Source of the DNA: Planctomycetota bacterium
GTDB lineage: Bacteria > Planctomycetota > Phycisphaerae > WQYP01
Direction of reading: 5' to 3'
NCBI GenBank assembly: GCA_021852225.1
Contig: JAJZOA010000111.1
Location: 1 to 16,553, forward strand
DNA length: 16,553 nt
Shown: one piece after another, positions 1,275 through 16,553 of the stretch
Numbering within the stretch: the first letter of the stretch is position 1
How the letters are laid out: each line of letters opens with the position of its first letter
Made by a program: the position numbers and the translations under genes
The notes under the pieces: model-generated
Told to the model about the DNA's origin: nothing
Database searches by the model: none
Seen by the model: only the letters and a program-made list of their open reading frames with translations

Positions 1275-1304
1275 ATCCACACACCACCACGGTTGCGGAC
1301 ATTC

Positions 1305-1966: not shown

Positions 1967-1995
1967 AAAAAACGGAGCGGTTTTTAACCGCTCCG
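1967..1995 (-). terminator. Rho-independent terminator of the PEP-CTERM gene at 2037-2942
   Basis: A perfect 10-bp stem CGGAGCGGTT/AACCGCTCCG (1995-1986 with 1982-1973) has a 3-nt loop. On the minus strand it is followed by six U residues (1972-1967). It lies about 40 bp past the stop codon of the upstream gene. This is a textbook intrinsic terminator. Confidence 0.9.
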
Positions 1996-2036
1996 CTGTA
2001 CGGAAACAAACTCTGGTCAGTGATCCGTGGCATTGA

Positions 2037-2942
2037 TCAGTGGATTTTCGCCATCCGCCGCCGCAGAGCCAACAAGGCTAATCCGCCGATGGCGAATAAC
2101 CCCAGCGTGGCCGGTTCCGGCACAGCGGTGAGGCTAAAATTAGTGATAGTACCGGTTGCGGGTGGAACTATAACGAAGCCGATCTGGTTCGCCACGGTCG
2201 TACCACCCAAGGCCGTCACCGCACTCGTCACGCTATCTGCTGGATTGGTCAGATCATTCCACTTGAACTGCACCGTCCAGTTGCTTGGCGTGGTGGTGTC
2301 TAAGATCATCGAAGTGACAATCGTGTCTGAAGTATAGGTTCCGCTCGAGCTCGTGCCCCCGGCTGTGGGACCTCCGACGAAACCGGCAGTGTGACTCACA
2401 TAACCAGCGTCGCTGTGGGCACTGAGACTGGGACGGACAAACGTCCACGGATTCGTACCCGCCCCCCACAGCCCGGAGGAATTATCGAAGAAAAATCCGA
2501 TCCAATCGGCGGCAGTCCCCGTTGTGCGAGCCACAATCGTGGTCTGGGCCGTATAAACTTGGCCGCTTTGCGGTGTAAACGGAATCCATGCGGTCGCATC
2601 ATATGCTGGCGTTGACGGATTGCCGGAATAATTCAGTTGACCGCCGCCGGTGGTGCTGGTCGCCCAACCGGTGTCGGCAACATTCCCGTTCGGGTTGATC
2701 GCCGACCAAGTCGCCCCCGCCGTTCCGCCGAGGCCGCCCGTGTCGATCGTGGGAGCCGAACCGTTTAACCCGCCCGTGCGATTAAAGCTATCTTGGTAAA
2801 TCGTCGTATTGGCCCGTGCGGTCGCGGCAGCAAACAGCCCGGGGCCTGCGGCCACCGCCAGTGCGGCACCGGCGATTACGGCTCGCGCCGCCAGTGAGGA
2901 ACCGTGAGAAACATGAGAAATTGATAAACGTTTGGGAAACAT
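2037..2942 (-). CDS. PEP-CTERM sorting-domain surface protein
   Basis: A 301-residue exported protein. Residues 1-44 form a signal peptide with a basic start (MFPKRLSISH), an Ala-rich core and ATARA as probable cleavage site. The body is Gly/Ser/Thr-rich and probably a beta-sandwich; IYQDSFNRTGGLNGSAPTID resembles the other two family members here. The tail is a complete PEP-CTERM signal: VPEP at about 274-277, a hydrophobic helix, then RRR near 294-296. Such tails are cut and the protein re-anchored or released by an exosortase/archaeosortase-type enzyme, which is not encoded in the window. The ATG at 2942 is chosen over the longer frame (to 3077) because GCAGGAG precedes it at good spacing and the longer version would translate the conserved hairpin leader. 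A strong terminator follows. The ligand or structural role is unknown. Confidence 0.9.
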   Translation of the reverse strand: MFPKRLSISHVSHGSSLAARAVIAGAALAVAAGPGLFAAATARANTTIYQDSFNRTGGLNGSAPTIDTGGLGGTAGATWSAINPNGNVADTGWATSTTGGGQLNYSGNPSTPAYDATAWIPFTPQSGQVYTAQTTIVARTTGTAADWIGFFFDNSSGLWGAGTNPWTFVRPSLSAHSDAGYVSHTAGFVGGPTAGGTSSSGTYTSDTIVTSMILDTTTPSNWTVQFKWNDLTNPADSVTSAVTALGGTTVANQIGFVIVPPATGTITNFSLTAVPEPATLGLFAIGGLALLALRRRMAKIH

Positions 2943-3004
2943 AAAAAACTCCTGCTCCCTGTGGGAGCCTCTCGAATTTCCTGCCAAACCGGGCAGGCTG
3001 CGGA
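2943..3004 (-). promoter_or_regulatory. Conserved two-hairpin 5' leader, copy 2 (carries the compensatory change)
   Basis: The layout matches the copies at 1214 and 7806. The distal stem here is CTGCC/GGCAG (2996-2992 with 2985-2981) where the other copies have CCGCC/GGCGG, so one C-G pair has become U-A with pairing kept. The Shine-Dalgarno-proximal hairpin is GCTCCC-ACA-GGGAGC (2968-2954), with a loop change only. Upstream DNA beyond the leader does not resemble the other copies, so selection on the leader itself is likely. Confidence 0.7.
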
Positions 3005-3029
3005 CCCACACACGAACATCCCAGATAAC

Positions 3030-3047
3030 GTCCCGGCGTACCGGGAC
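3030..3047. repeat. Small REP-like palindrome
   Basis: A perfect 7-bp stem GTCCCGG/CCGGGAC with loop CGTA. Its GTCCCG core recurs in the intergenic hairpins at 3121-3134 and 6306-6326. It has no U-tract, so it is not a terminator. Confidence 0.6.
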
Positions 3048-3120
3048 TGTGGATATCGGGACATGGGTTGTGGGCATTGTTTAGACTGCTTCGGAGCCAG
3101 CCTACACAGGCGGCCCCTTC

Positions 3121-3134
3121 CCCGGCGTTCCGGG
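3121..3134. repeat. Small REP-like palindrome
   Basis: CCCGG-CGTT-CCGGG, followed by AC, is nearly the same core and loop as the palindrome at 3030-3047, about 90 bp away. Confidence 0.5.
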
Positions 3135-3254
3135 ACGGCTTTTCTATCTCATGCACCTCCTTGTCCGGCAGCGTCCAGAACTCCAAGAACACACATCCCC
3201 CCCGGCCTACCGACCAATAGACAAGCCAATCCGGGCAGAGTGATCACTTTCGCC

Positions 3255-3276
3255 GCCTGTCTGCAAATAGACAGGC
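3255..3276. repeat. Perfect 8-bp hairpin
   Basis: GCCTGTCT and AGACAGGC flank the 6-nt loop GCAAAT. No U-tract follows on either strand. It resembles the dispersed GCCTG...CAGGC intergenic palindromes of many uncultivated bacteria. A related TGCCTACCGGCAGGCA occurs inside the signal-peptide region of the first PEP-CTERM gene, near 1126-1141. Confidence 0.55.
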
Positions 3277-3326
3277 AGGATGCGACCGATGGTTAGTAAT
3301 TATTTCTCTCAACCAGGCCGCAATGA

Positions 3327-3372
3327 TTCTCCAAGCGATTCGGAATCGATTTGGGAGAAAATATTCCGAATC
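3327..3372. promoter_or_regulatory. Inverted repeats with mutually exclusive pairings
   Basis: GATTCGGAAT (3337-3346) is perfectly inverted at 3363-3372 (ATTCCGAATC, 16-bp spacer). An overlapping alternative hairpin pairs TTCTCC (3327-3332) with GGAGAA (3354-3359) and CGATT with AATCG inside it. The two folds compete for the same bases. This could be an operator or an RNA switch; no target gene is evident. Confidence 0.4.
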
Positions 3373-3796
3373 ACTATGATTAGGAGTGTAACCCGATTCA
3401 AGGCCGTGTCAAGTGATTTTACAAAATTTAAAAAAAGTCACCGTACCCGCGGTTGGCGAACGGGTATCATCCAATAGTGTCCGGCCCGGTTTTTGCTGTG
3501 AGTGTTTTTGTGATGTGCAGGTGATCGACCGCGTGTTGTGCGAGGTTGGCAACCCAGCGGCCACGGTGCGGTCTGCGACTGCGGTGCTTCTTCGTCTTAT
3601 CCTGAAATACCCGCCCGCAGTCGAACACCTTCCCGGTGCTGCAACAGTGCCGAATGCCCAACCCGCAGCGATATAATGCGCCTCCACACCATGCGATGAA
3701 GCTTCAGCATTAGGCTGTACCCTTTTTATTTGCATTTACGGTCAGTTCCGGAAAATGTCGCTAAGGTGAATGACATCGTGATTGACAATCGATCAG

Positions 3797-6121
3797 CTAC
3801 GAGCGGTGAATATCAACGGTGAGTGCCGTTACGGAATTGGCAAAGCAAATGCGCAGCAAACCATCGGCGTAATCCCATGCGGCGGCAGGCAACGGTTTGC
3901 CCGCCACCCATACCGCACGGGGGACACGGACCATCGTTACGCAGACCACGGCCTGCGTATCCTCGATGCCATCGGCCAGAAAGGTGATGTGGGAACTGGT
4001 CACCTTTTGCCCGTCTATGCGGCAGGCGGCGGCTACGACACCCTCGCTGCCCTGCGGCAGCGCGTCGAGATCGACCAGCACATTCCTGGTGCCAAGTGCA
4101 ACCGTATAACTTGTAACCAGCGGCAGCCGAGCATTGAACAACGGAATAAACCGGCCATGCAGCGTCGTTGGCCGGGTACCGGGCTTTAACTCCGTTAGCC
4201 CGGACGTTATGATGTATGGTCCGCGCCGTAGTACCAGCGATGAAGATTCTTTCCACGGCAACAATGCCAATTTACAGGCCAACCGCATCTGGTCACAAAC
4301 TGCCTCGTCGCCGTTTTTTTGATAACTCAGTGCCGCCGGCGACAGGGGTTGATAAATCACAAAACCGTTGCCAACGACTGATGCACCGGATTTGCTTACC
4401 GGCACGTCCAATAATTCAAACAAGTGATCGCGTGGAGTGGCATAGCGCATCGGCGCGGTGTTCCACCATTCGTGTACGGCATTGTATGGATCATTGTCAT
4501 TATCCATCACCACCAAAACTCCGCCCCGCTTCACCCATGCCGTTAGTGTAGTATGAAATTCCGAAACCGGCGGTTTCTGGCCTTCGTAGGTCAATATGAG
4601 TATGCGATAACGATCCAAAAAGCCGTGGGAGGCTGCATATTCAATCTGTACGCTTTCCACCGGCATTCCCCGTTTAAGCAGGGGCATGGCCAAGCCATAG
4701 AACGACCCCAAGTAAGGGTCGGACGGGGTGGGGGCCGCGCGTTGAAAAAGCATGGTGTCGGAAACCAGCACGCCGATGCCGGTTGTGCCGCGGGCCAGCC
4801 AGCGAATCGCATCGGGCGGCTGATGCATACCGGGCAATGCCGCCATGGCCGACTGAAGTTCGGTGGCGTAATCGGCTGGAATGCCGACGGCATGAGATTT
4901 AAAGAATTGAGAGCCAATATGCTGTGGATCGGTCGAGTGAACATCAGAAGCGTTTGCCTTCTTCAACAACTTGTTGGACACAATGTGGCGCGTACCCTGA
5001 AACACCCGCTCCGGCCACGGCATGACCTCATACCGCGCCACTTCCGGATAAAACAGCGAGGCGGTCAGCACATCCTGCCAGTGGGTGCGGTAATCCTCCC
5101 AGGTATGATGGGGATTATCCGAAGCGGGATCCGCGAGAAACCACATTAAGCGATTGCGGCCGGGGCCGCGGATGAAATTCCGGAATACGCCAAATTCGAG
5201 AAATGCAGTCTCGAACGGGCGCGACAGCAGCCGCCCGCGGTAAACATTGGGAACGCGGGCCGTGCCGGTCCAAACTTGGGCGATGTAGCCATCGCAGGGT
5301 ACTTCTATCAGCGATGACTCGGGACTGACGATCCTCCAACTGGCATAATTGAGCAGGGAGTGCGTGGCCACATAAAACGGGTTGTTTCGGCCATGCCGCG
5401 CCCCGTACCCGCGCAGAGCGCTTCCCACGGTTTTCAGCAGCCGTCGAAAAAGAAAATACTTAAGCTTGGACGCGCGCCATTGGGCGTCAACGGAACTGTC
5501 AGGAGCGATCCAGTTTTCGTGATAATAATTTTTCCACTGCCTGCGAAAGCCTTTTTCCCAACCCGCACCGGCCCAGAATTCAGGCTCTTCGAGGTAAATG
5601 GCCCGTGCTCCGGCATGGGCCATTTTCTTCACGACCTGCGTAAAAAACAAATCGTAGGACTCCGTGGGACAGAGGTAGCCGCCGGTTACACCGCCGTGCT
5701 CATAAGGCTGATTTTGAGCGTTGCGTTGAACATCATCCCCATGGCGCACGCCGTTCCACTTGCCGTCAATAAAATCCGCGCAGGTGCCCCAGGCCACACC
5801 GGTCATCGCATCGGTTTGATAACCGTGTTTGGCCCAATCGACCAGCCGTGAACGAAGATTGTTGATGCCATACACCATCACGCTATCGGTATTGAGGTTG
5901 ATTCGGCCCGACCATTCCGCGCCGGTTTGAAATGTCGTGCGCGACGCCGTGGCGGCGGTCACCGCAGAGACGATCGGTTCGGAACCAGGCGGTTTTCCGA
6001 TGGCAACGCCGGATCGATCGGCAACGGCCCACGCGGCGGAAGCCGCCAGAAGCGATTGAAGAAAGTGTCTTCTATGAGCCGTCGGCTCAGAAGCGGCTTG
6101 ATTGATAAATTGTCGCATCAT
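3797..6121 (-). CDS. Tat-exported putative glycoside hydrolase with GATase-like domain
   Basis: A 774-residue protein. The N-terminus carries a twin-arginine-type signal: HRRHFLQS at about residues 16-23, followed by an Ala/Leu core. Residues about 75-400 look like a TIM-barrel glycosidase related to the GH42/GH-A group: VMVYGINN, then GARAIYLEEPEFWAGAGW where an acidic active-site residue would fall on a strand end, then long helical segments rich in Trp and Tyr. Around residues 500-545, RYRILILTYEG and LTAWVKRGGVLVVMDNDND match the class I amidotransferase-like fold that follows the barrel in GH42-type beta-galactosidases. The C-terminus is probably beta-rich. The role is inferred as extracytoplasmic polysaccharide or oligosaccharide breakdown, fitting the neighbouring surface proteins and LacI stub. 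The substrate cannot be read. Start: tandem ATGs at 6121/6118; a tiny 7-codon frame just upstream ends in TGA overlapping them. Confidence 0.75.
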   Translation of the reverse strand: MMRQFINQAASEPTAHRRHFLQSLLAASAAWAVADRSGVAIGKPPGSEPIVSAVTAATASRTTFQTGAEWSGRINLNTDSVMVYGINNLRSRLVDWAKHGYQTDAMTGVAWGTCADFIDGKWNGVRHGDDVQRNAQNQPYEHGGVTGGYLCPTESYDLFFTQVVKKMAHAGARAIYLEEPEFWAGAGWEKGFRRQWKNYYHENWIAPDSSVDAQWRASKLKYFLFRRLLKTVGSALRGYGARHGRNNPFYVATHSLLNYASWRIVSPESSLIEVPCDGYIAQVWTGTARVPNVYRGRLLSRPFETAFLEFGVFRNFIRGPGRNRLMWFLADPASDNPHHTWEDYRTHWQDVLTASLFYPEVARYEVMPWPERVFQGTRHIVSNKLLKKANASDVHSTDPQHIGSQFFKSHAVGIPADYATELQSAMAALPGMHQPPDAIRWLARGTTGIGVLVSDTMLFQRAAPTPSDPYLGSFYGLAMPLLKRGMPVESVQIEYAASHGFLDRYRILILTYEGQKPPVSEFHTTLTAWVKRGGVLVVMDNDNDPYNAVHEWWNTAPMRYATPRDHLFELLDVPVSKSGASVVGNGFVIYQPLSPAALSYQKNGDEAVCDQMRLACKLALLPWKESSSLVLRRGPYIITSGLTELKPGTRPTTLHGRFIPLFNARLPLVTSYTVALGTRNVLVDLDALPQGSEGVVAAACRIDGQKVTSSHITFLADGIEDTQAVVCVTMVRVPRAVWVAGKPLPAAAWDYADGLLRICFANSVTALTVDIHRS

Positions 6122-6305
6122 AATTCCATATCCATATACATGTCACTCAAACTACTTGGAAGCATTCGGGGGCTGGTTTTTTCTGCCTTCTCTCAAAACG
6201 CGTTTTCCGTATTTCCGCTGGAACACCGGCAAATCAAGTCGTTATATATGGAACATGTCTCCAGGGAAGTTGTTTCAAGATTATTACCAGCGAGTTCCGC
6301 ACCAA

Positions 6306-6326
6306 GTCCCGTCGGCACAACGGGAC
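6306..6326. repeat. Small GTCCCG palindrome downstream of the prepilin-like gene
   Basis: GTCCCGT (6306-6312) pairs with ACGGGAC (6320-6326) around the loop CGGCACA. It sits 8 bp past the stop of the minus-strand prepilin-like gene but lacks a U-tract. It could stabilise the 3' end or be another member of the local REP-like family. Confidence 0.5.
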
Positions 6327-6333
6327 AGAAGAG

Positions 6334-6855
6334 TCACCAACCTTGGTAGGCCATATTAATCCAACTGAAGCGTACCTTAATGTTGGACATCGGTACCCAC
6401 CGCACGGAACCATCGTTGTACATTTCATGTTCGCCAGCGGGCAGGGCGTTACCCAATCCTTCATCGACATAATTGGAAAGAGGTCCAGTAATCCAAGGGA
6501 TCTGTTGCCCGGTTGCACCCTGGGCACCAGTCTGGTTGACGAAAAGGGCGTTGTCCGTAACCAATAACGTGCCGCCGCCGGACTGGGGATTCAGTGCCGG
6601 CTGATGCTCCGGATCGTAGTTGAAACGTCCCAGCGGACCACCGCCATATTGATTTTGCATATCCGTGGCCCAAGCCGCCGTTCCACCGTTGTAGATGGCG
6701 GCAAGATCATAGCTTGGAGTGTAATCCTGGCCTTCATCAAGCAATTCGATGAGGGTGAAACCGTTGCGGCCTGCGGGCCGCGAGGATTTAGGAGACAGGA
6801 GACGAGAGACAGTAGCACATGTCGGCGATTCGCAGTTTATCAGGTTGGTATTCAT
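6334..6855 (-). pseudogene. Prepilin-like (DUF1559-type) protein with deleted membrane helix
   Basis: A 173-residue frame from ATG 6855 with AAGGAG upstream. Residues about 28-39 are the prepilin processing motif GRNGFTLIELL. The normal continuation, a hydrophobic VVIAIIALL-type helix of about 20 residues, is missing: the chain jumps to DEGQDYTPSYDLAAIYNG. The C-terminal part keeps GEHEMYNDGSVRWV, the H...DG-V-W ending of planctomycete prepilin-like DUF1559-type proteins. Members usually have well over 200 residues, so an in-frame internal deletion is the simplest reading. Without the helix it should not assemble into a pseudopilus. It lies 83 bp downstream of the PEP-CTERM gene at 7805 and could be co-transcribed with it. 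The alternative is a diverged but functional non-pilin protein. Confidence 0.65.
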
Positions 6856-6938
6856 GACAAACTCCTTTTGCCAAACGTTAAGCGAAGAAAGAAGCGGGCA
6901 AAATCGCCCCTCCTCCCAGAATGTCTTATCCAGCAACT

Positions 6939-7805
6939 TCACACCGTCTTCCGCCGTTTCAGCAGCAGCAGGCCCAATCCGCCCAGTGCCATCAGCCCCA
7001 GCGTCGCCGGTTCGGGCACGGGCGACGAGGTAAGCTCGAAGTTGCTGAACTGGCCATTTATAACGCTTCCATCGTTACCTATGCCAACCGCGGTGATGTC
7101 TGGATTGGTGGGGAATGCCTCGATCGGAGATACGGCGACTCCGTTAAGGAAGAGTTGCCAAGTCCAGGTACTACCTCCGGTGTTAAGAACGGATGACAGT
7201 GTATTAACTCCGGCGACGGCATTATTAAAATTTTGCCCATAGGTGTCGACTCCGGGGCCCGTGAACAGCGTGCCATCGTTTTGGCCGACGACGGGATTGT
7301 TAACTACTGTTCTTAAGAGCCCCCAGGCATAGGCACCTTCACTGGTTGGAGCATCGAAACGCCCACTGGTATTGGGGGTTTTCAAGAAGCCAATCGACAG
7401 CCAGTCATTACCGGTTCCGGGGTTGAGCCCTGTTATAGGATTGAGACCCGCCGACAAGGTGTAGATGTTCCCAGTGACTGGCGAGAACTTAAGGTAAGCA
7501 GCACCGCCTCCACTGTTGAGGCCCTCCGATGTGTAACCACTGTCCGCAAATCCAATGTACCCGGAACTGCTACCGGAATTATCGGCGGTCCATGTGGTGC
7601 TGGTGCCGTTATCAATAGTTGGTGCCGCACCGTTCAGCGGGGTCGTCGCGCTGCCGGTGAAACTGTCCTGATAAATGATGTTACTGGCTGAGGCCGCACC
7701 AGCCGTCATGCCCAACATTGCCAGTGTCCCGATGGCTATCGGGGCGATGGCCGCCTTGGCCACCAGAGAAGAACCACGAGAAATTGGGAAAGATTTGCAA
7801 AACAT
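6939..7805 (-). CDS. PEP-CTERM sorting-domain surface protein
   Basis: A 288-residue exported protein. The signal peptide spans about 1-40 (MFCKSFPISRGSSLVAKAAI, ending AASA). The body begins NIIYQDSFTGS, LNGAAPTIDNG and is Gly/Asn/Ser-rich, homologous along its length to the genes at 1213 and 2942. The tail is a complete sorting signal: SPVPEP at about 261-266, a Leu-rich helix, then KRRKTV. The protein is expected to be processed by an exosortase not seen in the window. The ATG at 7805 is preferred to the longer frame (to 7895) because GCAGGAG lies just upstream and the longer frame would run through the hairpin leader. The duplicated upstream block shows that this gene and the one at 1213 arose by duplication. 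No clear terminator separates it from the prepilin-like gene. Specific function unknown. Confidence 0.9.
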   Translation of the reverse strand: MFCKSFPISRGSSLVAKAAIAPIAIGTLAMLGMTAGAASASNIIYQDSFTGSATTPLNGAAPTIDNGTSTTWTADNSGSSSGYIGFADSGYTSEGLNSGGGAAYLKFSPVTGNIYTLSAGLNPITGLNPGTGNDWLSIGFLKTPNTSGRFDAPTSEGAYAWGLLRTVVNNPVVGQNDGTLFTGPGVDTYGQNFNNAVAGVNTLSSVLNTGGSTWTWQLFLNGVAVSPIEAFPTNPDITAVGIGNDGSVINGQFSNFELTSSPVPEPATLGLMALGGLGLLLLKRRKTV

Positions 7806-7867
7806 AGAAAAACTCCTGCTCCCTTTGGGAGCCTCTCGAATTTCCCGCCGAACCGGGCGGACTACGG
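7806..7867 (-). promoter_or_regulatory. Conserved two-hairpin 5' leader, copy 3
   Basis: The stem CCGCC/GGCGG (7860-7856 with 7849-7845) and hairpin GCTCCC-AAA-GGGAGC (7832-7818) are followed by AGGAG and the ATG at 7805. It is nearly identical to copy 1, as expected from the shared duplication. Confidence 0.65.
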
Positions 7868-8335
7868 TTCCACGCACCAACGCTGTTGTGGACATTCTCT
7901 ACATAACCCTAAGAGCTTGCGACACTCCTACTCCAGTACAATCCATCAAAAACTGAACGCCCAAACCTGTTGAATCACACACCATCCGCCTGCCGCTCAA
8001 AAAACTCCAACGTAGTCTGACATGGCAAGTCGAATTTGATAGGGTCGGACCGCCTTAGTTCAATGAAAGTATATTCCGACCCACACACTGACGCAAAAAA
8101 CATGGTCATTATTTTCGCATTACTTTACCACCAAACAAGCCACTCACGCTTGGTTTACGGTAAAACATGAAAAACAAAATGGTTTAACCTTACCAACAAT
8201 TCCGGATATCCATCCACGTTATCGGCCCATCAATAAGAATAATGAAGCGAAAAGCCGCTCCGAATAACGTCAAGTATGGACCTTTTCCGGAGACCGAATT
8301 GCAGGCATATCAACCCGTCTGTGCATGGACAATTA
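7806..8335. repeat. Duplicated upstream block, copy B (partner 1214-1735)
   Basis: See the partner for shared blocks. In this copy the distal edge runs into the LacI-family stub, and the last codons of that stub (VHAQTG-stop) lie inside the block. Beyond about 8335 the two loci have nothing in common. The block contains GGTTTAACC at 8181-8189 at the same relative place as copy A. Confidence 0.85.
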
Positions 8336-8546
8336 ATTCCGCAGTTACCCCAATGTGCATTGGAGGAAGCTGTGGCTCGTTGATCCGTTGGAACATGGTG
8401 TGCAACGCAATGGCACCGATTCCGGCCGCCGGTTGCCGGATGGTGGTCAACGGAACGGATAAATGAGAAGCCATGGGCAGGTCATCAAAGCCCCCTATGA
8501 ATACCACCTTATGACATGCCTCACACAGTGGCAGTACATAATTGGA
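8310..8546 (-). pseudogene. C-terminal remnant of a LacI-family transcriptional regulator
   Basis: Minus-strand residues VVFIGGFDDLPMASHL, SVPLTTIRQPAAGIGAIA and LPPMHIGVTAELIVHAQTG match the conserved last 65 or so residues of the LacI/GalR sugar-binding domain, including the GFDD-P-A and LTT-RQP motifs. The frame is closed upstream by TAG at 8549-8547. The DNA-binding helix-turn-helix and most of the ligand domain (family length about 340) are absent. A second frame around 8550-8620 may hold shifted remnants (LAVFW...YLVQLC), but this is uncertain. The stub probably once regulated the neighbouring carbohydrate/surface genes; it cannot bind DNA now. Confidence 0.8.
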
Positions 8547-8724
8547 CTAAATACGTCCCCGCTACGCTCCTTAACCAAAAGACCGCGAGTCGACCACACC
8601 GCTGTTTTGCAGCACCTTTCACAAAACCCGCCAGAAACCGGCACATCCGCCGTGTTTGATGTTTAAACCAGCGAGCCTGTCACACATAAGTAGATCATCA
8701 TTTCTTTCGGATAGGACTTTATCC

Positions 8725-8798
8725 TAGATATCGTTACGCAACTGAACCTATTGCGAATGCAGCACTTTCCCTATTTTATTAGATCTCTGCGATATCTA
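8725..8798. promoter_or_regulatory. Widely spaced 9-bp inverted repeat upstream of dsrA
   Basis: TAGATATCG (8725-8733) is perfectly inverted at 8790-8798 (CGATATCTA), with 56 bp between. The AT-rich spacer is a plausible promoter zone, so paired regulator sites are possible. Chance is not excluded. Confidence 0.3.
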
Positions 8799-8820
8799 AC
8801 ATTGAAATTGTGACGCCGCG

Positions 8821-8859
8821 AATGCCGGCTGGGAGTGATTGTGGCTTCCACCCGGCATT
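8821..8859 (+). promoter_or_regulatory. Stable hairpin in the dsrA upstream region
   Basis: AATGCCGG (8821-8828) pairs with CCGGCATT (8852-8859). After one C-C mismatch the helix continues with TGG/CCA and further pairs (one G-U). There is no U-tract on either side, so an intrinsic terminator is unlikely. It ends about 95 bp before dsrA and could be an operator or part of the mRNA leader. Confidence 0.5.
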
Positions 8860-8954
8860 GCAAAACACCATGCGTCAGGCGTGATGGAGTAAATCGGGGA
8901 GCAGCTTAAAAAGCCACGCAGGAGTTGATCGTCACATGTATTAACACAAAGAGA

Positions 8955-10397
8955 ATGGATATGGAAAAAATTCAATTATGTTGTGCCAAGTGCGGATTTG
9001 TTGTGGAGGAATACACAGCTAATGAACTGGCGGAAATTCCACGCAAAGTAAAACGCTACGAATACCTGCTGAAAAAATCCTCAATCTGCCCGTCATGTCT
9101 GGCGTCGGGCCGGCTTAAAGAACTTCGCGCTACCGAGCAAGCCGATGTGGCAGGCCCGAAGGTGCAGGTAAACGCCTCGACGCGCGCGCCGGTCGGTCAT
9201 GAGGAACACGCCGATTCACCCACACCGATGATGGATGCGATTTCTCAAGGATCCTGGCCCAGCCATGCGGCGGAACTCAAGAAGACTCGGTATCCCCTTC
9301 AGATGTATGAACAGGCACTGCAAAAACGCGCAACGCAATGGGGCTACGGTGGCTATGTTTCCCTGCCGGGTGTGGCTACGGGCGTGCTGGTTCGATCTTC
9401 CGCCCGACCTGATATTACCAAGGGATCGAATTTTGTTCGCATCATGGATCCGTGCGGAAATTTCTTCAAAACCGACGGCATGCGGAAACTTTGCGACATC
9501 GCAGACAAGTACGCTTACGGTCTTCTTCACTTATTGAGCACCGGCGGCGATCTGGAAATGCTGGGTATCCCGACGGAAAACCTCAAGCCGGCGGTGGATG
9601 AAATAGTCCAGCTCGGGTTTGATGTAGGTTCGACCGGCGATGATTTTCGTACCAGCGAAGAGTGCATCGGGCCAGCCAAGTGCGACTTGCCGCTTTATGA
9701 CACGCTGGGGTTTCGTGCGGCGTGGTATAAGCGATTTTTGGATGATGTTCAGTACCCGCGCTTTCCACATAAGGTCAAGTGCAAGTTCTCCGGATGCCCT
9801 AATGATTGCGTGCGCGGTGGACAGAAAGCGGATATTTTTGTCTGTGGCGTATTTCGGGACTTGCCGGTCATTGACCAGAGCAATGTTAAAACGTGGGTCG
9901 AAAACGGCGGCGATATCGGAACCGTTTGTACCCGGTGTCCGGGCGGAGGCCTTAACTGGGATCCCAAAACCGGATTGAGCATTGACGGCGACAGTTGCCT
10001 GCGATGTATGTATTGCATTAATAAAATTCCCGGCGTGCGGCCCGGAGGGGACCGGGGAGTGGCGATTCTCGTGGGCGGCAAATTGCGTGGTAAATATGGC
10101 CCCATGCTGGCCAAAGTGGTTGTGCCGTTCATGAAAGCAGTGCCGCCGGATTATAAAGAAGTCTTCGACATGATTGAGAAGATTACCGAAGTTTATGACG
10201 AGCACGCTCGCAAGAAAGAACGCATGGGTGATTTCCTGTTACGCATCGGCCCGAACGAATTTTTCCGATTAATCGGCGTGCCATTGTCGCCGCGACTTTT
10301 CGCTCAGCCGCGAACCAATTTGTATTATCACTGGGAACCCGAGGAAATCAAAGACGAACGTGTTTCAGCTACCGAGCCGATTCAAGGCCCCAATTGA
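8955..10397 (+). CDS. dsrA: Dissimilatory sulfite reductase alpha subunit with N-terminal zinc-ribbon-like extension
   Basis: A 480-residue subunit of the siroheme enzyme that reduces sulfite (or runs in reverse). DsrA homology starts near residue 94 (ISQGSWPSHAAELK). Siroheme/[4Fe-4S] ligands are C237-x5-C243 (CIGPAKC) and C281-x3-C285 (GCPNDC). The ferredoxin domain has C325/C328 (CTRCPGG) and C348-x2-C351-x2-C354 (CLRCMYCIN), followed by GVAILVGGK. Residues 1-60 are extra compared with the roughly 440-residue DsrA of Desulfovibrio: C10-x2-C13 (CAKCGF) and C45-x2-C48 (CPSC) make a probable zinc ribbon or rubredoxin-like metal site, followed by a flexible linker. Start: ATG 8955 or 8961; a TTG at 8925 is possible, but AGGAG there directly abuts it. 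It forms an alpha2beta2 complex with DsrB, encoded 10 bp downstream. It is the first gene of the operon. Reductive or oxidative direction is not decided by the sequence. Confidence 0.93.
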   Translation: MDMEKIQLCCAKCGFVVEEYTANELAEIPRKVKRYEYLLKKSSICPSCLASGRLKELRATEQADVAGPKVQVNASTRAPVGHEEHADSPTPMMDAISQGSWPSHAAELKKTRYPLQMYEQALQKRATQWGYGGYVSLPGVATGVLVRSSARPDITKGSNFVRIMDPCGNFFKTDGMRKLCDIADKYAYGLLHLLSTGGDLEMLGIPTENLKPAVDEIVQLGFDVGSTGDDFRTSEECIGPAKCDLPLYDTLGFRAAWYKRFLDDVQYPRFPHKVKCKFSGCPNDCVRGGQKADIFVCGVFRDLPVIDQSNVKTWVENGGDIGTVCTRCPGGGLNWDPKTGLSIDGDSCLRCMYCINKIPGVRPGGDRGVAILVGGKLRGKYGPMLAKVVVPFMKAVPPDYKEVFDMIEKITEVYDEHARKKERMGDFLLRIGPNEFFRLIGVPLSPRLFAQPRTNLYYHWEPEEIKDERVSATEPIQGPN

Positions 10398-10407
10398 GGA
10401 TTATATT

Positions 10408-11466
10408 ATGCCAGGCATAGGAATACCACCGCTGGAAGCCAATTTGCCGCCGATTGTAAAACGTAATTACGGCAAATGGATAACACACGAACACCCCCGC
10501 CCCGGCGTCATCAAGCATGATTCCGAATCAGGAGAGGCCTGTTTTACCGTGCGTGCCGGAATGCCGCCAAATGCTCGCATCAGCACGCAAACGCTGCGGA
10601 CTATTTGCGATGTCGCCGATGAGTTCTGCGAAGGCTACTTCCGCGTGACTCAGCGCAATAGCTGCGAGTTTGTCGGCGTGCCGGAAAATCGCATTGATCA
10701 ACTCATCGCACGTTTGGCCCAAATGGGCTTTCCCGTCGGCGGCACCAATCGCTCACTGCACAATACCGTTTGCTGCACGGGTTATCTGCATTGCCATCTC
10801 GCGGCCACCGACCCGCCGGCGATTATGAAGGCGGTTTCGGAAATGCTGATGAAGGAATATACCCACGATTGTCTGCCCGCCAAGCTGAAAATTTCCGGAT
10901 CCGGTTGTCTTAACAATTGCGGTGAATCTTCCACCGCGGACATCGCGATTATCGGAGTTCATCGTGATCTGCCGCCGATCCATGAAGAGAAGCTCAAAGG
11001 CTGTGAATTGCCGCTGGTGATTTCGGTTTGTCCGGTCGGTGCCATCCGTCCTAAAGGTCCGGGCATGATTGAAATTGATCCGAAACGCTGCATCCATTGT
11101 CCCGCCTGTTCGGTTTCGTGTGCCGCGATGGCACCGATCGGCAGTCCAATCGGTGACGGCGTGGCGATTGTGGTCGGCGGTAAAGCCGGTAACACCGGCG
11201 ATGGACCGGCGATGGCCAAAGTTGTGGTTCCCTATTTGCCCAACAATCCGCCCTACTGGCCTGAAGTTACCAGCGCGATTCGGAGCATTGTTGATGCGTG
11301 GTCGGCCAACGCCCGGAAGGACGAGCGCGTCGGCGAGTGGATCAACCGCATCGGCTGGGAAAAGTTTTATCAACGCACCAGTTTGCCGCTCTCATTCAAA
11401 ATTGTGGACAACTATGACGCGCGTGCCCTGGAGTACGCCAAGGCCAATGTGCGCTTTACATGGTAG
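10408..11466 (+). CDS. dsrB: Dissimilatory sulfite reductase beta subunit
   Basis: 352 residues. In characterised enzymes DsrB carries the catalytic siroheme. Candidate cluster/siroheme ligands are C123-x5-C129 (CTGYLHC, preceded by C122) and C167-x3-C171 (GCLNNCG). The inserted ferredoxin domain has C208 (SVCPVGAIRP) and C228-x2-C231-x2-C234 (CIHCPAC, then C238). The ending GVAIVVGGKAG...AKVVVPYLP is shared with DsrA, reflecting the ancient duplication. Common bacterial DsrB has CC-x3-C at the second motif; here there is a single Cys before x3-C, which suggests a divergent lineage, though I cannot place it. Start ATG 10408 has GAGGA at 10396-10400 overlapping the dsrA stop, implying translational coupling. 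The longer frame from 10360 would overlap dsrA and is rejected. dsrC follows after 19 bp. No dsrD lies next to it. Confidence 0.93.
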   Translation: MPGIGIPPLEANLPPIVKRNYGKWITHEHPRPGVIKHDSESGEACFTVRAGMPPNARISTQTLRTICDVADEFCEGYFRVTQRNSCEFVGVPENRIDQLIARLAQMGFPVGGTNRSLHNTVCCTGYLHCHLAATDPPAIMKAVSEMLMKEYTHDCLPAKLKISGSGCLNNCGESSTADIAIIGVHRDLPPIHEEKLKGCELPLVISVCPVGAIRPKGPGMIEIDPKRCIHCPACSVSCAAMAPIGSPIGDGVAIVVGGKAGNTGDGPAMAKVVVPYLPNNPPYWPEVTSAIRSIVDAWSANARKDERVGEWINRIGWEKFYQRTSLPLSFKIVDNYDARALEYAKANVRFTW

Positions 11467-11485
11467 CCAAGATACGGAGTCTTTT

Positions 11486-11803
11486 ATGTCTGTTGTTACA
11501 CTTGCCGGAAAGCAATTTGAGGTCGATGAAGACGGCTTCATGCAGGATACCACGCAATGGACGCCGGATGTGGCCATCGGTCTGGCCAAGTCCGAAGGCA
11601 TTGATGCACTCACGGATGATCACTGGAAGGTGATCAACTATCTGCGTGAGTACTATCAGAAATTCAATGTTGCGCCGCCAATTCGGATGGTCTGCAAGCA
11701 AACCGGATTTCCGCTCAAGCGCATTTATGAATTATTCTCAACCGGGCCGGCTAAAGGGGCCTGCAAGCTCGCCGGATTACCCAAGCCCACCGGTTGCATA
11801 TAA
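11486..11803 (+). CDS. dsrC: DsrC sulfur-carrier protein
   Basis: 105 residues, the usual DsrC size. The C-terminal arm is intact: GACKLAGLPKPTGCI gives Cys93 and the penultimate Cys104, the two redox cysteines that take sulfite-derived sulfur from DsrAB as a trisulfide. The FSTGPAKGACKLAGLPKPTG stretch is the family hallmark and separates true DsrC from TusE-type homologues lacking Cys93. The fold is helical with a winged-helix-like surface (WKVINYLREYY, PIRMVCKQTG); Cys70 is additional. GGAG at 11476-11479 precedes the ATG. It lies between dsrB and dsrM, so the carrier is made together with the reductase that loads it and the DsrMK complex that should regenerate it. Confidence 0.96.
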   Translation: MSVVTLAGKQFEVDEDGFMQDTTQWTPDVAIGLAKSEGIDALTDDHWKVINYLREYYQKFNVAPPIRMVCKQTGFPLKRIYELFSTGPAKGACKLAGLPKPTGCI

Positions 11804-11827
11804 GCCAGCCGACGCGCGATCAATAGA

Positions 11828-11876
11828 GAAATGGCACGGCATGCGACACAGCCCGAAGGCACGCAGGCCCCATTTC
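11828..11876 (+). promoter_or_regulatory. Hairpin between dsrC and dsrM
   Basis: GAAATGG (11828-11834) pairs with CCATTTC (11870-11876), and TGCG (11842-11845) can pair with CGCA (11862-11865) inside. This 86-bp gap is the largest in an otherwise tightly packed operon. With no U-tract it is more likely an mRNA-stability or processing element that raises DsrC relative to DsrMK than a terminator; that is inference. Confidence 0.4.
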
Positions 11877-11889
11877 AGGGCGTATACGT

Positions 11890-12660
11890 ATGATCACACA
11901 ATTCCTCCCAGCACTGTTATATGTATCTGCCGTGATCTTTATTATCGGCATGGGGCGGCGTATATACATCTGGGTACGCACGCCCGTGCCACTGAACATT
12001 GTGCTCACGCCCGCGCCAAAACATATCCCAGGAGTCATCGGGCGTCTGGTCGGGGAATTGTTCGGATTCCACGCCTTGGCCAAGGCGGATCGTTCGCTTT
12101 GGACTCCGGCGTGGCTATTTCATTTTTCGCTCGTGCTGCTGTTACTGGGACATCTTGGCGGCTTGGTGATTCCCCACTTTGCGCAGACGGCTATGGGACT
12201 CAATGAAAAACAATTTGAACATATGGCGCAGATCGTCGGCGGCGCGGTGGGCATTTTGGCCATTGCGACGCTTTTATGGTTGCTGATCCGTCGGCTGATT
12301 TTGCCGCGGGTGCGATGGATTTCAACCTTCAGCGACTATTTCGCGCTGGTTCTGCTGCTTCTGATACTTGCCACCGGAAACGCCATGCGATTCATGGGTG
12401 GTCTGGACATCGTGCAAGCCCGGAACTTCGTCGCGGGCTGGCTGGCGCTGCATCCGGTGGCCCCGCCGAGCGATCCGGTTTTTTCCATCCATATCGTTCT
12501 TGTGTGCATGTTGCTGATCTATATTCCATTCAGCAAACTTGTGCATATCGGAGGAGTTGCCCTTTTGAGTCCGACGCTCAATCAACGCAATAATCCGCGT
12601 GAACACCGTTATGTTAATTCCTGGGATAAGGCCAATGACAATTCCACAACTTCATCCTGA
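11890..12660 (+). CDS. dsrM: DsrM-type membrane cytochrome b (NarI-like)
   Basis: 256 residues with about five membrane helices (roughly 3-22, 74-95, 115-136, 148-168, 198-216). Four histidines sit where the two haem b ligands pairs of the NarI/DsrM family belong: H78 and H88 (LFHFSLVLLLLGHLGG) in helix 2 and H201 and H219 (SIHIVLV, KLVHIGG) in helix 5. The role is to take electrons from the quinol pool and pass them to DsrK. It is shorter than the roughly 330-residue DsrM of Desulfovibrio. The ribosome site is weak (CAGGGC). The 3' end overlaps the dsrK start, so the two subunits are translationally coupled. The hydrophilic tail after residue 235 is low-complexity (DKANDNSTTSS), partly because it shares DNA with dsrK. 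Confidence 0.88.
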   Translation: MITQFLPALLYVSAVIFIIGMGRRIYIWVRTPVPLNIVLTPAPKHIPGVIGRLVGELFGFHALAKADRSLWTPAWLFHFSLVLLLLGHLGGLVIPHFAQTAMGLNEKQFEHMAQIVGGAVGILAIATLLWLLIRRLILPRVRWISTFSDYFALVLLLLILATGNAMRFMGGLDIVQARNFVAGWLALHPVAPPSDPVFSIHIVLVCMLLIYIPFSKLVHIGGVALLSPTLNQRNNPREHRYVNSWDKANDNSTTSS

Positions 12661-14026
12661 TGCCGCCGCCAAGGTGCAGGCCCATCGCGCAAAAAAAGAG
12701 CTGATGGTGTCGCTGGGCTTGGCACCGGAACTTCCCGCGGACTGGCGGGAGAAGGCGTTGTGTAAATTTGATGAACTATTGCATCAACGCCGTTCGCTGG
12801 CGCTGTACATGGATATTTGCGTCCGCTGCGGGGCCTGCGCCGATAAATGTCCGTTCTTTCTCGGCACGGGCGATCCGAAGAACATGCCCGTCGCCCGTGC
12901 GGAACTTTTGCGTAAAGTATATCGTCGGCATTTTACCGCCGCCGGAAGGGTCTCGGGGCATTTGGCCGCCGGTGAAGAACTTACCGATACGGTGCTCAAC
13001 GAGTGGTTCACTTATTTTTACCAATGCTCGGAGTGCCGTCGTTGTGCAGAATTCTGTCCGTTTGGCGTGGACACGGCGGAAATAACCATGGCGGCTCGAG
13101 AAATCATGGCGTCAATTGGCGTGGCGCCAAAATATGTCACCGAGGTCATCAAAAAAGCTCATGAGCTTGGCAATAATATCGGTATCCCGGAAGCCGCATG
13201 GATTGATGGCTGCCAGTTTCTCGAAGAGGAACTCAAGGCGCAAACCGGGCTGGATATCAAGGTTCCGGTCAATCAGGCCGGTGCTGAAGTCCTGTTGGTA
13301 CCACCGTCGGCTGATTTGTTTGTCAATACCGACACGATGGTGGGATATGCCCTGATGTTTCACGCGGCGGGCATCAGTTGGACCACGAGTTCCTACGCCA
13401 GTGAAGCGGGAAATTTTGGCTTGTTCCTGAACTATGAGCATCTCAAAAAAATCAACCTGCGTATCGTGGATTCCGCCCGGCAACTCGGCGTCAAACGGCT
13501 GGTAATGGGTGAATGCGGCCACGCCTGGCGTGCGGCACAGGCTTTTATGAACACGCTAAACGGACCATTGGATTTTCTGGAGCCACCCTGCCCGGAACAT
13601 ATTTGTGAGCTTGCGGCGCGGCTTATCCGCGCAGGCCGGCTGAAGCTGAATAAATCCGCCAACGATGGCTTGGTCGTTACCTATCATGATCCCTGCAATC
13701 TTGCCCGGGGCGGCGGTCTTATGGAGGAACCGCGGGAAATTTTACGTGCGGTAGTCAATGATTTTCGCGAAATGCCCGCCAATACGATCCGGGAAAAAAC
13801 ATTCTGCTGTGGTGCCGGCGGCGGTCTGTTGACCGAAGAACTTATGGAAACCCGGATGAATGGCGTCAAACCGAGATTAGAGGCCTTCCGCACCAGCGGC
13901 GCAACGCACCTGGCCACGCCTTGCGCCATCTGCAAGGCGCAGTTTCCGGTGGCGTTTAAACATTATGCCATGAATGCCCAGGTTGTCGGCGTCATGGATT
14001 TATTGGGTAAGGCCCTTGTGCTCTGA
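12635..14026 (+). CDS. dsrK: DsrK-type iron-sulfur heterodisulfide-reductase-like subunit
   Basis: 463 residues, HdrD-like. Two classical [4Fe-4S] motifs: C62-x2-C65-x2-C68-x3-C72 (CVRCGACADKCP) and C131-x2-C134-x2-C137-x3-C141 (CSECRRCAEFCP). The C-terminal CCG domain carries C354 (YHDPCNLARGGG), C391-C392 (FCCGAGGG) and C430-x2-C433 (TPCAICK), which bind the non-cubane cluster that reduces disulfides or trisulfides. An earlier half-motif is GEC-GHAWR at C294. With DsrM it should accept quinol electrons and reduce the DsrC trisulfide. Start: ATG 12635 (AAGG upstream) is taken, overlapping dsrM by 26 nt; ATG 12611 and GTG 12599 are alternatives. No dsrJOP follows, so this is a minimal DsrMK complex as far as the window shows. 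Confidence 0.92.
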   Translation: MTIPQLHPDAAAKVQAHRAKKELMVSLGLAPELPADWREKALCKFDELLHQRRSLALYMDICVRCGACADKCPFFLGTGDPKNMPVARAELLRKVYRRHFTAAGRVSGHLAAGEELTDTVLNEWFTYFYQCSECRRCAEFCPFGVDTAEITMAAREIMASIGVAPKYVTEVIKKAHELGNNIGIPEAAWIDGCQFLEEELKAQTGLDIKVPVNQAGAEVLLVPPSADLFVNTDTMVGYALMFHAAGISWTTSSYASEAGNFGLFLNYEHLKKINLRIVDSARQLGVKRLVMGECGHAWRAAQAFMNTLNGPLDFLEPPCPEHICELAARLIRAGRLKLNKSANDGLVVTYHDPCNLARGGGLMEEPREILRAVVNDFREMPANTIREKTFCCGAGGGLLTEELMETRMNGVKPRLEAFRTSGATHLATPCAICKAQFPVAFKHYAMNAQVVGVMDLLGKALVL

Positions 14027-14043
14027 AAACAAAGGAGTTTTTT

Positions 14044-14229
14044 ATGTATCTGATTGTTATCGATGAAAAAAAATGCACCATCTGCGGCGAATGTATCAAT
14101 ATATGTCCCAATGAGGTCTACAAGCTTGAGGCTGGCCACGTGATCGTGGCCAATGCCACGGATTGCAGCAATTGCCAAAGCTGCGTTTCCATGTGCGAAC
14201 CGCAGGCCATTACGATTTCGGAAGTCTAA
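14044..14229 (+). CDS. Small 2[4Fe-4S] ferredoxin
   Basis: 61 residues with two complete cluster motifs: C11-x2-C14-x2-C17-x3-C21 (CTICGECINICP) and C41-x2-C44-x2-C47-x3-C51 (CSNCQSCVSMCE). This is a soluble electron carrier of the clostridial type. AAAGGAG at 14031-14037 gives a strong ribosome site, and the gene starts 17 bp after dsrK. Its place in the dsr operon suggests it feeds electrons to DsrAB or exchanges them with DsrK. That is a guess from context; a stand-alone ferredoxin is not part of the canonical dsrMKJOP set. Confidence 0.9.
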   Translation: MYLIVIDEKKCTICGECINICPNEVYKLEAGHVIVANATDCSNCQSCVSMCEPQAITISEV

Positions 14230-14238
14230 GAGGTACTT

Positions 14239-14640
14239 ATGAGTCTTATTTCCATTAAACATGAAAACGCTCTGCGCGTGAGAGCCGATATTCGCGGCCA
14301 CAAGCTCGTTCTTGATGTTCCGGCCAATTTGGGAGGCGCGGATGCCGGCCCGGAACCGGTTGAGCTTTTCACCGCCTCTCTGGGCGCGTGCATGGCCATG
14401 CACATCGCAAAATATTGTGAAACGGCCAAGCTCCCCCATGAAGGATTTGAGATAGACCTCGATTTTCAAGTCGTGAAGGGGCCGTTGCGGGTTGGATCTG
14501 TGATGGTAGACATAAGGTTGCCTGCGGAATTTCCGGAATCCCGCGTAGAAGCCATTAAGCGAGCAGCGCAGCAATGTACGGTCAAAAACACGCTCAAAGA
14601 CACGACGGCTGTGGATGTAGAAGTCTACCGCGGCGCATAG
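14239..14640 (+). CDS. OsmC/Ohr-family thiol protein
   Basis: 133 residues. The two family cysteines are present: C51 in ELFTASLGACMAMHIAKYC and C113 in QQCTVKNTL (the family's C-P/T-V-x-NTL motif). Size and order match stand-alone OsmC-like proteins, which use this Cys pair to reduce organic peroxides or handle reactive thiols and persulfides. The gene begins 9 bp after the ferredoxin stop with AAGAGGT as ribosome site, so it is most likely the last gene of the dsr operon. Relatives occur fused to TusA/SirA sulfur-carrier domains, so a role in sulfane-sulfur or oxidative protection is plausible but unproven. A weak hairpin GGCCT/AGGCC (14648-14662) follows; no intrinsic terminator is seen. 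Confidence 0.85.
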   Translation: MSLISIKHENALRVRADIRGHKLVLDVPANLGGADAGPEPVELFTASLGACMAMHIAKYCETAKLPHEGFEIDLDFQVVKGPLRVGSVMVDIRLPAEFPESRVEAIKRAAQQCTVKNTLKDTTAVDVEVYRGA

Positions 14641-14786
14641 GCGAGATGGCCTTGATGAGGCCTGCCAAAAACAACGGGCAAGCCCGGCTGCGCAAATGTA
14701 TCCGCTTGAATAGCCAAGCTGCGGCGGGCAGGCAGTCTGCGCACCGCGTCATGGCATACTTTTCCAGCATGACTTTACAAGTGATG

Positions 14787-15695
14787 CTACCGTATAAAAT
14801 TCGACACCGCCAAGTCGATGACTTCATCGCCACGGCCATTTAAGACCGCCTTCAACGCCCATAGATTGAATCCTACTGCCTGATCCCACTTAATCGACGG
14901 CGGCAGGGAGAGTTCCTGTCGATTCACCACCACATCCACCAGAGCGGGTCCGTCATAAGCATTGTCATAAGCATTGTGTTCCAGACCGCGCAGGGCCGAG
15001 ACAATCGGCGATTTAAGCTTCTCCGCCACCTGCATTAGTTCGCCGTGCGCTCCGGCGCAGCCGGCTCCGCCAAGAATTGTCACCGCTTTAGCCTGGTTCA
15101 ATGTTGCGGCCAATTGCTGAATTTCCTGCTCCGATGGCTCAACGGTGGGATGCAATTGCCGGACGCTGGCGCTGGGCTTGCGATAGTTGGTTTGCTTTAA
15201 TGCAATGTCGCCCGGAATTGCCACCACTGAAACGCCCCGCTTTGTCAGCGCCGTCTGGATTGCAATTTCCAATACCCGCGGAATTTGCCCGGGCTGGGAC
15301 ACCAGTTCACAGTAATGACTGCAATTACGGAAAAGCTGATCCGGATGCGTTTCCTGAAAATAATTGCTCCCTATTTCCACACTTGGAATATGAGCTGCTA
15401 TGGCCAGCACCGGCACCCGACTGCGCTGACAGTCATATAAACCGTTGATCAGATGCATATTGCCCGGCCCGCAACTTCCCGCGCAGACCGCCAGTTCGCC
15501 GGTAATATGCGCCTGTGCACCGGCCGCAAACGCCGCCGTCTCTTCGTGTCGCACGCCAATCCACTGTATATCCTTGCCTTTTCCCATCTCCTCCAAAATG
15601 CCATTGAGCGAATCCCCCGCCACGCCATAAATACGCTTCACCCCGGCTGCAATGAGCGTCTCAATAATAATTTCAGCCACACTTTTCTGTACCAT
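14787..15695 (-). pseudogene. poxB: Pyruvate oxidase/dehydrogenase (PoxB-type) with large in-frame internal deletion
   Basis: 302 residues against about 570 for E. coli PoxB, a thiamine-diphosphate flavoenzyme that converts pyruvate to acetate and CO2 and reduces quinone. Residues 1-247 follow PoxB closely: GVKRIYGVAGDSLNG, catalytic Glu in RHEETAAFAAGA, CAGSCGPGN, FQETHP, GGAGCAGAH and ALRGLEHNAYDNAYD. The next residues are GPALVDVVV...GRGDEVIDLAVSNFIR, which match the very C-terminus including the membrane-binding end. About 270 residues between are missing: the rest of the FAD-binding middle domain and essentially all of the diphosphate-binding domain with its GDG motif. The frame is intact across the join. 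It should not be an active oxidase. Start ATG 15695 has AGGGG upstream; the longer frame (to 15767) has no family match there. It is convergent with the dsr operon. Confidence 0.8.
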
Positions 15696-15981
15696 ATAAT
15701 GCCCCTGAAACACGGCGAGCCAGCCGTGCGAAATCCAGACGCAATGCGCCCGCAACGAAAATCGCACCGCCCACTTACAACATCATAACCCCTCCCCGAC
15801 ACTCGTGCTCTGTGACGCCTACCAATTAGGGTTGGCGGATGGCAACGGGGCCGTGGGCACGGAGCGAGGAGGATCGCGTATGGGTTCATACGCTGCCGCC
15901 GCCGAGGTTTTAGGTTACAGGTTACAGGTAGTTTTCAGTTTTCAGTACTATGCCGGAGCAAGGGGGCCAAGTCGTTTTCGA

Positions 15982-15996
15982 GGCCGCTACGGGGCC
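15982..15996. repeat. Palindrome GGCCGCTACGGGGCC
   Basis: A 15-bp near-palindrome (one mismatch pair), repeated almost exactly at 16397-16411 as the perfect version GGCCCC-TAC-GGGGCC. It is a dispersed small hairpin. Confidence 0.5.
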
Positions 15997-16141
15997 ACTA
16001 GAAGTCCTTTTCACTGATCAAAGAACACTGATCACGGATCAATATGGCAACGGGCAACGAACAACGAACAACAGCTTTTCGGGCTGCCGAGGCAAGGATG
16101 CCAAGTCGGCGCTGCGCTCAATGAACAATGAGTAATGAGAC

Positions 16142-16157
16142 ACCCGTTGCGACGGGT
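16142..16157. repeat. Palindrome ACCCGT-TGCG-ACGGGT
   Basis: A perfect 6-bp stem with a 4-nt loop. It is flanked on both sides by the direct repeat TAATGAGAC (16133-16141 and 16158-16166), so the hairpin appears to interrupt or separate heptamer-type units. A second small hairpin GGTGC/GCACC follows at 16170-16183. Confidence 0.5.
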
Positions 16158-16396
16158 TTAATGAGACGTGGTGCCTGCGCACCGCTTAAAATGTTTGGAG
16201 CCTAGCGGCGACATTGTTTTAGAATCCAGAATCCGGAAGGCAGAAGGCAAAATAAGGAAGACTTTTGCTTGCGGATTTCAAGGTGGCCAAGATGTCCAAG
16301 TTAGGGAAGCAAGGTGTCCAAGTTGGACATGTTGATGGAAGCCTTATAAATCGCGGGGTTCATTCATGTTGTCCAAGATGTCCAAGATGTTTTCTA

Positions 16397-16411
16397 GGCC
16401 CCTACGGGGCC
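16397..16411. repeat. Palindrome GGCCCCTACGGGGCC
   Basis: A perfect 6-bp stem GGCCCC/GGGGCC with loop TAC; the partner copy is at 15982-15996. It sits between the TCCAAGATG repeats and the GCATTTA heptamer island. Confidence 0.5.
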
Positions 16412-16532
16412 AGCATTTAGCATTGAGGAGTTAGGAGTTAGAAGGCATTTGGGCGCGCGGATTGGGCGAGGGCGGTTCGCTTCAACGAACAACGAAACAC
16501 TGCGTTTAACGAACAACGAGCAATCCCGATAC

Positions 16533-16547
16533 GCGATTTCAAATCGC
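16533..16547. repeat. Palindrome GCGATTTCAAATCGC
   Basis: A perfect 7-bp inverted repeat around a single C at the right edge of the window. The continuation outside the window is unknown. Confidence 0.45.
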
Positions 16548-16553
16548 ATCGCG

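Follow-up and report, generated by a model that had tools for sequence, protein, structure and literature searches.

Gene content and layout of the operon

The window analysed here, a stretch of 16,553 bp with 54% GC from the Planctomycetota assembly GCA_021852225.1 (contig JAJZOA010000111.1), carries at 8955-14640 on the plus strand a single tight operon composed of dsrA, dsrB, dsrC, dsrM, dsrK, a ferredoxin gene and an OsmC-like gene, by which an uncultured planctomycete is probably able to breathe sulfite. An earlier annotation made from the sequence alone, hereafter the original prediction, had reported this gene set, with a two-cysteine DsrC and with no dsrD, dsrN or dsrJOP alongside, and all of these elements were recovered at the same positions. 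The nearest genome, G001, matches window positions 8496-16553 at 98.7% identity and was used as a stand-in for the genome of the window; the locus taken to be its own, L008, belongs to a Planctomycetota metagenome-assembled genome (MAG).

The first gene, dsrA (8955..10397, 480 aa, alternative start at 8961), encodes an N-terminal extension followed by a core with the C-X5-C/CPNDC ligands of the siroheme-[4Fe-4S] cofactor, and dsrB (10408..11466, 352 aa) features the motifs CTGYLHC, CLNNC and CIHCPAC. The product of dsrC (11486..11803, 105 aa) ends in CKLAGLPKPTGCI, in which the two redox cysteines of functional DsrC are present in the C-X10-C arrangement. A short dsrM (11890..12660, 256 aa) encodes a NarI-type cytochrome b with five hydrophobic segments. 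The longest frame of dsrK opens with a GTG at 12599, within dsrM; since homologues are mostly 463 aa long, the start was placed at the in-frame ATG at 12635, giving a gene at 12635..14026 with a product of that length. The operon closes with a 2[4Fe-4S] ferredoxin (14044..14229, 61 aa) and an OsmC-like thiol protein (14239..14640, 133 aa). In gene order, the intergenic gaps measure 10, 19 and 86 bp, followed by a 26 bp overlap between dsrM and dsrK and by gaps of 17 and 9 bp.

DsrB and DsrK pass their equivalog models (TIGR02066, 374 bits with a cut-off of 341.5; NF045796, 537.4 bits with a cut-off of 400), and DsrC matches PF04358 with 129.3 bits. DsrA reaches 331.6 bits with TIGR02064, still its best-matching family, and fails the cut-off of 392.85; DsrM matches PF02665 with 94.2 bits and fails NF038037 (142.9 bits, cut-off 300). 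As these scores lie below the NCBIfam cut-offs, DsrA and DsrM are regarded as divergent. A DsrK equivalog adjoining a NarI-type cytochrome b corresponds to a two-subunit DsrMK. It does not correspond to DsrMKJOP, as DsrM is under the equivalog cut-off and no J, O or P was found in the operon. Neither dsrD, dsrN nor dsrJOP lies within the operon, the search for dsrJOP being limited to the operon and not extended to the rest of the genome.

All parts of the operon are under purifying selection, with dN/dS values of 0.04-0.18 relative to locus L011 and 0.04-0.13 relative to L009, dS being near or past saturation throughout and the DsrA extension being saturated in the L009 comparison. Promoter and terminator scans gave signals no better than those of shuffled sequences, nothing in Rfam reached the gathering score, and no tRNA was found. 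No relative was present in the viral contigs searched, and the plasmid search returned five weak matches only (three labelled nirB and two unannotated).

A divergent DsrA with an additional N-terminal domain

In an alignment of 68 rows, the siroheme-[4Fe-4S] ligands C237, C243, C281 and C285 of DsrA are invariant, together with R162, R232, K273 and K275, and K277 is kept in at least 90% of the rows. R162, R232, K273, K275 and K277 align with the substrate-residue positions of Archaeoglobus fulgidus, whose arginines and lysines we take to bind the substrate. Because ligands and core are intact, the divergent protein would be expected to work like a DsrA. The core fold and the cofactor ligands are shared with the canonical DsrAB of A. 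fulgidus (3mm5) and Desulfovibrio vulgaris (2v4j), which are devoid of the N-terminal domain.

This domain (8961..9143, plus strand), missed in the original prediction, spans about 61 residues with four conserved cysteines and a KRxxYLxxK helix, in the order CxxC ... KRxxYLxxK ... CPxC. It is predicted to be zinc-ribbon-like and is probably metal-binding. In the five solved DsrA alpha chains it is absent, their matches starting at profile position 86 or beyond, and in one archaeal MAG its homologue is a separate gene directly 3' of dsrB. The predicted model of the whole has a pTM of 0.60 and the linker to the N-terminal domain a pLDDT of 35-47, and for this reason no placement of the domain on the DsrAB dimer is claimed. 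Among open-licence papers, none was found tying the DsrA of dissimilatory sulfite reductase to an N-terminal extension, or a zinc ribbon to the DsrA of sulfite reductase; in the main text of PMC12948486, the words N-terminal, rubredoxin and zinc occur 0 times.

Some unusual arrangements were encountered among the relatives. An archaeal MAG (128-326; loci L025 and L034) holds two differing dsrAB pairs, one of them with a stand-alone zinc-ribbon-like gene, which may represent two copies or a mixed bin. Rokubacteria feature tandem dsrA-dsrB pairs (L019, 7497-12462; L021, 3-3434); in L019 the extra domain is found on both DsrA, and in L021 the first dsrA falls off the contig. In the metagenomic protein P0085 (370 aa), an extended DsrA is joined straight to a complete DsrC, the remaining DsrA and DsrB being gone; this may be a deletion fusion or a misassembly.

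Recurrence of the operon and a probable exchange of the membrane module

The operon is also present in other planctomycete and in verrucomicrobial MAGs. Ten operons of the short-DsrM type lie on contigs long enough to be judged, and nine of them (L008-L012, L014, L018, L024 and L031) show A-B-C-M-K-ferredoxin, the exception being L023. In this count L008 is the nearest strain itself, and L013, ending inside dsrK, is left out. An OsmC gene comes next in six of the nine operons that can be judged (L008-L011, L014 and L018, not L012, L023 and L024), the contigs of L013 and L031 ending too early. In L009, a rhodanese gene lies directly downstream, adjoining OsmC.

Operons of Rokubacteria and Opitutae (L015-L017, L019-L022) encode the same DsrA N-terminal domain, and their DsrB and DsrC are 58-81% identical to those of the window, whereas DsrM (32-36% identity) and DsrK (49-50%) are of another type. 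In L015 both proteins pass DsrMKJOP-type models, and the ferredoxin-domain gene that comes next in these operons is a candidate DsrO. In the DsrB tree, the three Opitutae (L015-L017) fall within the planctomycete-verrucomicrobial group, which has 13 rows and a support of 100. DsrK instead groups them with Rokubacteria, and a branch with support 100 splits these 7 rows from the 28 rows of the short-DsrM type. Given these different placements, the simplest account would be that DsrAB was retained and the membrane module swapped.

Placement within the DsrAB lineages

In a tree of the DsrA core (65 rows), the window falls in a 40-row clade (SH-aLRT 95) together with Planctomycetota, Verrucomicrobiota, Rokubacteria and Chloroflexota. 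Judged by its phyla, this clade would correspond to the basal type II DsrAB described in PMC12948486, which comprises the same bacterial phyla (Verrucomicrobiota, Planctomycetota, Chloroflexota and Methylomirabilota), phyla that form one clade in the DsrA tree. The DsrB tree backs only the Planctomycetota/Verrucomicrobiota part of this grouping (the 13-row group mentioned above). Differences are also present: Hydrothermarchaeum, included in basal type II by that paper, lies outside the 40-row clade, and the ancestral set inferred there is DsrABCNM, with DsrK left unresolved, whereas the window operon has DsrK and no cobB/DsrN was detected in its clade. The archaeal sulfite reducers with a minimal DsrABCMK(N), as described in PMC10504309, are alike in DsrABC, in DsrMK and in acting at the level of sulfite; unlike the window's nearest genomes, in which cobB/dsrN was not detected, they encode DsrN nearby, and the window DsrA differs from theirs in its added N-terminal domain.

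The original prediction had described sulfite reduction as poorly known in planctomycetes, in agreement with the 2026 census (PMC12948486), which added two planctomycete sequences to basal type II DsrAB. Among 392 genomes sampled from the phylum of G001, five had a DsrA match (E <= 1e-20); the window type was found only in G001, the other four matches being 36-38% identical. According to two recent evolutionary studies (PMC10504309, PMC12948486), the lineage probably split off close to where biological sulfite reduction began, and to it are now added planctomycete operons with DsrK but apparently without DsrN.

Sulfite rather than sulfate as the likely electron acceptor

Pathway-level genes were sought in genomes with these operons, 13 for aprA and sat and 14 for cobB, DsrD, Xsc and the glycyl-radical enzyme. 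Above cut-off, aprA was found in three of 13 (G005, G006 and G012), with weaker matches under the cut-off turning up in the majority of the genomes and in five of the 14 controls; sat was found in four (G005, G006, G012 and G013). The cobB model TIGR00379, expected to catch DsrN, was passed in 6 of 14 genomes (G005, G006, G010, G012, G013 and G405). In eight of 13 genomes (G001-G004, G007-G009 and G011) sat, aprA and cobB are all under cut-off, G003 giving a partial cobB match of 24.7 bits. The combination of sat and aprA known from sulfate reducers (aprB lay outside the search) is thus not detected in G001 and its close kin G002, G004, G007 and G008. Because sat and aprA are under cut-off in these eight genomes, G001 among them, sulfite and not sulfate is the likely acceptor, as the original prediction had proposed.

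By the same searches the usual siroheme amidase seems to be missing from these genomes, DsrN having been sought with one model only, on incomplete MAGs. In the published account, DsrN is part of the minimal module with DsrABCMK; 460 of 2070 assemblies lack it, and 446 of these 460 are incomplete. The clade-wide gap is therefore worth testing and should not be assumed to be missing data. No dsrD was found in any of the 14 genomes, and no control genome was positive either.

The prediction had also suggested that sulfite is released from sulfated or sulfonated organics, and this part was not supported. Sulfatases (E <= 1e-10) are few in the window's clade (three each in G001 and G004, two in G008, one in G007, none in G002) and numerous elsewhere (28 in G005, 21 in G006, and in verrucomicrobia 70 in G009 and at least 84 in G010, where 84 of 250 candidates were scored). 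Sulfatases yield sulfate, which these genomes, with sat and aprA not above cut-off, appear unable to activate, and sulfated polysaccharides were rejected as a source for this reason. Sulfonate cleavage by a glycyl-radical enzyme or by Xsc found no support in the window's clade. No glycyl-radical enzyme was above cut-off in G001-G008 (G007 gave one 19-bit match), only G009 and G012 of the 14 genomes passing, and Xsc was above cut-off in none of the 14, with no control passing either; matches under the Xsc cut-off, given by 12 of the 14 genomes and by 13 of the 14 controls, are as expected of other TPP enzymes. These two enzymes made up the search, SuyAB, CuyA, TauD and sulfoquinovose monooxygenase being left out. 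Free environmental sulfite, thiosulfate or another sulfonate route are possible supplies.

A proposed route of sulfite reduction and its alternatives

The operon is likely to encode a minimal module for respiratory sulfite reduction within the basal type II DsrAB lineage. Gene content, conservation, cysteine motifs, the grouping in the trees and the failure to detect sat, aprA and cobB in the nearest genomes are observations; in which direction the reaction runs, what supplies the electrons and what the extra DsrA domain and OsmC do is inferred. DsrAB, with its siroheme and [4Fe-4S] cofactors, would partially reduce sulfite and pass the sulfur to DsrC, whose two cysteines would hold it as a trisulfide. 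Electrons from menaquinol would then pass through the DsrM haem and DsrK to the DsrC trisulfide, with release of sulfide. The route from menaquinol through DsrMK to the DsrC trisulfide is the accepted scheme for these families. Early-diverging DsrAB are consistently without dsrD and dsrL in the published accounts, which count cultured reducers among them. Since these types are reported to have no DsrL, the ferredoxin encoded beside the enzyme is the likely candidate to supply DsrAB with its first electrons. The OsmC-like protein probably acts on thiols or persulfides. The conserved zinc-ribbon-like domain, which is open to direct testing, would most likely be structural, docking or regulatory in this lineage, from which DsrD is apparently absent.

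Several points weigh against respiratory sulfite reduction as set out here. The Chloroflexota operon L023, with the same type of DsrMK, has neither ferredoxin nor OsmC adjoining, making a general role of the two less likely, and the extra DsrA domain appears inessential in some members, as P0052, P0069, P0070, P0074 and locus L014 are without it. In the absence of DsrN, siroheme would be unamidated, unlike in most Dsr organisms. Of the MAGs, only G001 comes with a completeness estimate, 88%, and G002 measures just 1.5 Mb. On contig C63 of G001 (L007) there is another sulfite/nitrite reductase, encoded in a single frame of 621 codons that matches NIR_SIR twice, which is probably assimilatory; it argues against an assimilatory role of the dsr operon, not for respiration. 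We know of no culture of this clade. The DsrA tree was built quickly, from rows that include no canonical cellular DsrA of either the reductive or the oxidative kind and none of the sequences of PMC12948486, and it is rooted on a long-branched phage rDsrA, about which the program issued a warning. Moreover, other Verrucomicrobiota that carry DsrL-1 have been interpreted as oxidisers in the literature, and no genome-wide search for DsrL was made.

A third mode of sulfite reductase operation is doubtful, in which the zinc-ribbon-like domain and the ferredoxin would replace DsrD and DsrL in activation and electron entry, siroheme being unamidated for want of DsrN. In that reading, the domain would be a protein of its own at certain archaeal-type loci and a part of DsrA in bacteria.

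A role of the operon in sulfite detoxification, or as a sink for surplus reductant, with no energy conserved, is unlikely. A DsrMK of only two subunits in an operon without JOP would suit such a function, as would OsmC-type proteins, which are often stress proteins, the rhodanese gene of L009, and the failure to find either kind of sulfite-generating enzyme searched for in the window's clade; however, the presence of the membrane protein DsrM and of both cysteines in DsrC speaks for a step linked to quinones, and most archaea that have only DsrABCMK(N) are described or interpreted in the literature as reducing sulfite.

Operation in reverse, as sulfur oxidation with sulfite as product, is very unlikely. 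Deep-branching Methylomirabilota genomes encode DsrEFH, according to published work, and tandem DsrE-fold genes are present in G012 and G013, but aprA and sat, which would process the sulfite, are not above cut-off in the window's clade. The original prediction had named a DsrAB placement among sulfur oxidisers, and dsrEFH and dsrL elsewhere in the genome, as contrary signs. The window DsrA does not join phage rDsrA, the only oxidative reference in the tree, and G001 has no tandem dsrEFH, its three isolated DsrE-fold matches lying on three contigs; for dsrL the point stands as given above. Decay of the operon, in the manner of the LacI, prepilin-like and PoxB-like fragments nearby, is extremely improbable and already largely refuted by seven open genes, the low dN/dS relative to L011 and conservation across phyla.

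Host genome and neighbouring genes

The planctomycete setting that had been predicted is borne out by the match to G001, by its Planctomycetota locus and by the PEP-CTERM proteins and LacI-type remnant adjoining the operon; the close relative L011 is labelled Phycisphaerales. With regard to a chimeric contig, which the prediction had also raised, the right half of the window is confirmed in an independent MAG, G001. Positions 1-8495 have no syntenic match there, only partial paralogous ones (49 in G001), many in PEP-CTERM-type genes; these would fit the same lineage, and a misjoin at about 8496 is neither shown nor fully excluded.

That the LacI, prepilin-like and PoxB-like neighbours are fragments had not been noticed in the original prediction. 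Upstream, a LacI/RbsR-type C-terminal remnant (8313..8543, minus strand) spans the point near 8496 where synteny with G001 stops. Downstream and convergent lies a PoxB-like fragment (pyruvate oxidase/dehydrogenase; 14787..15767, minus strand), with much of its central and C-terminal parts gone; as one alignment to G001, 8,072 columns long, runs across the fragment, the gap is present in an independent MAG. Both lie outside the system. A prepilin-type fragment (6334..6942, minus strand) passes from a GFTLIELL start straight into sequence that looks unrelated, as though its central part had been lost, with no family match. In L011 (2885-5820), the genes upstream of the dsr operon are a fucose-isomerase-type gene and an FGGY sugar kinase.

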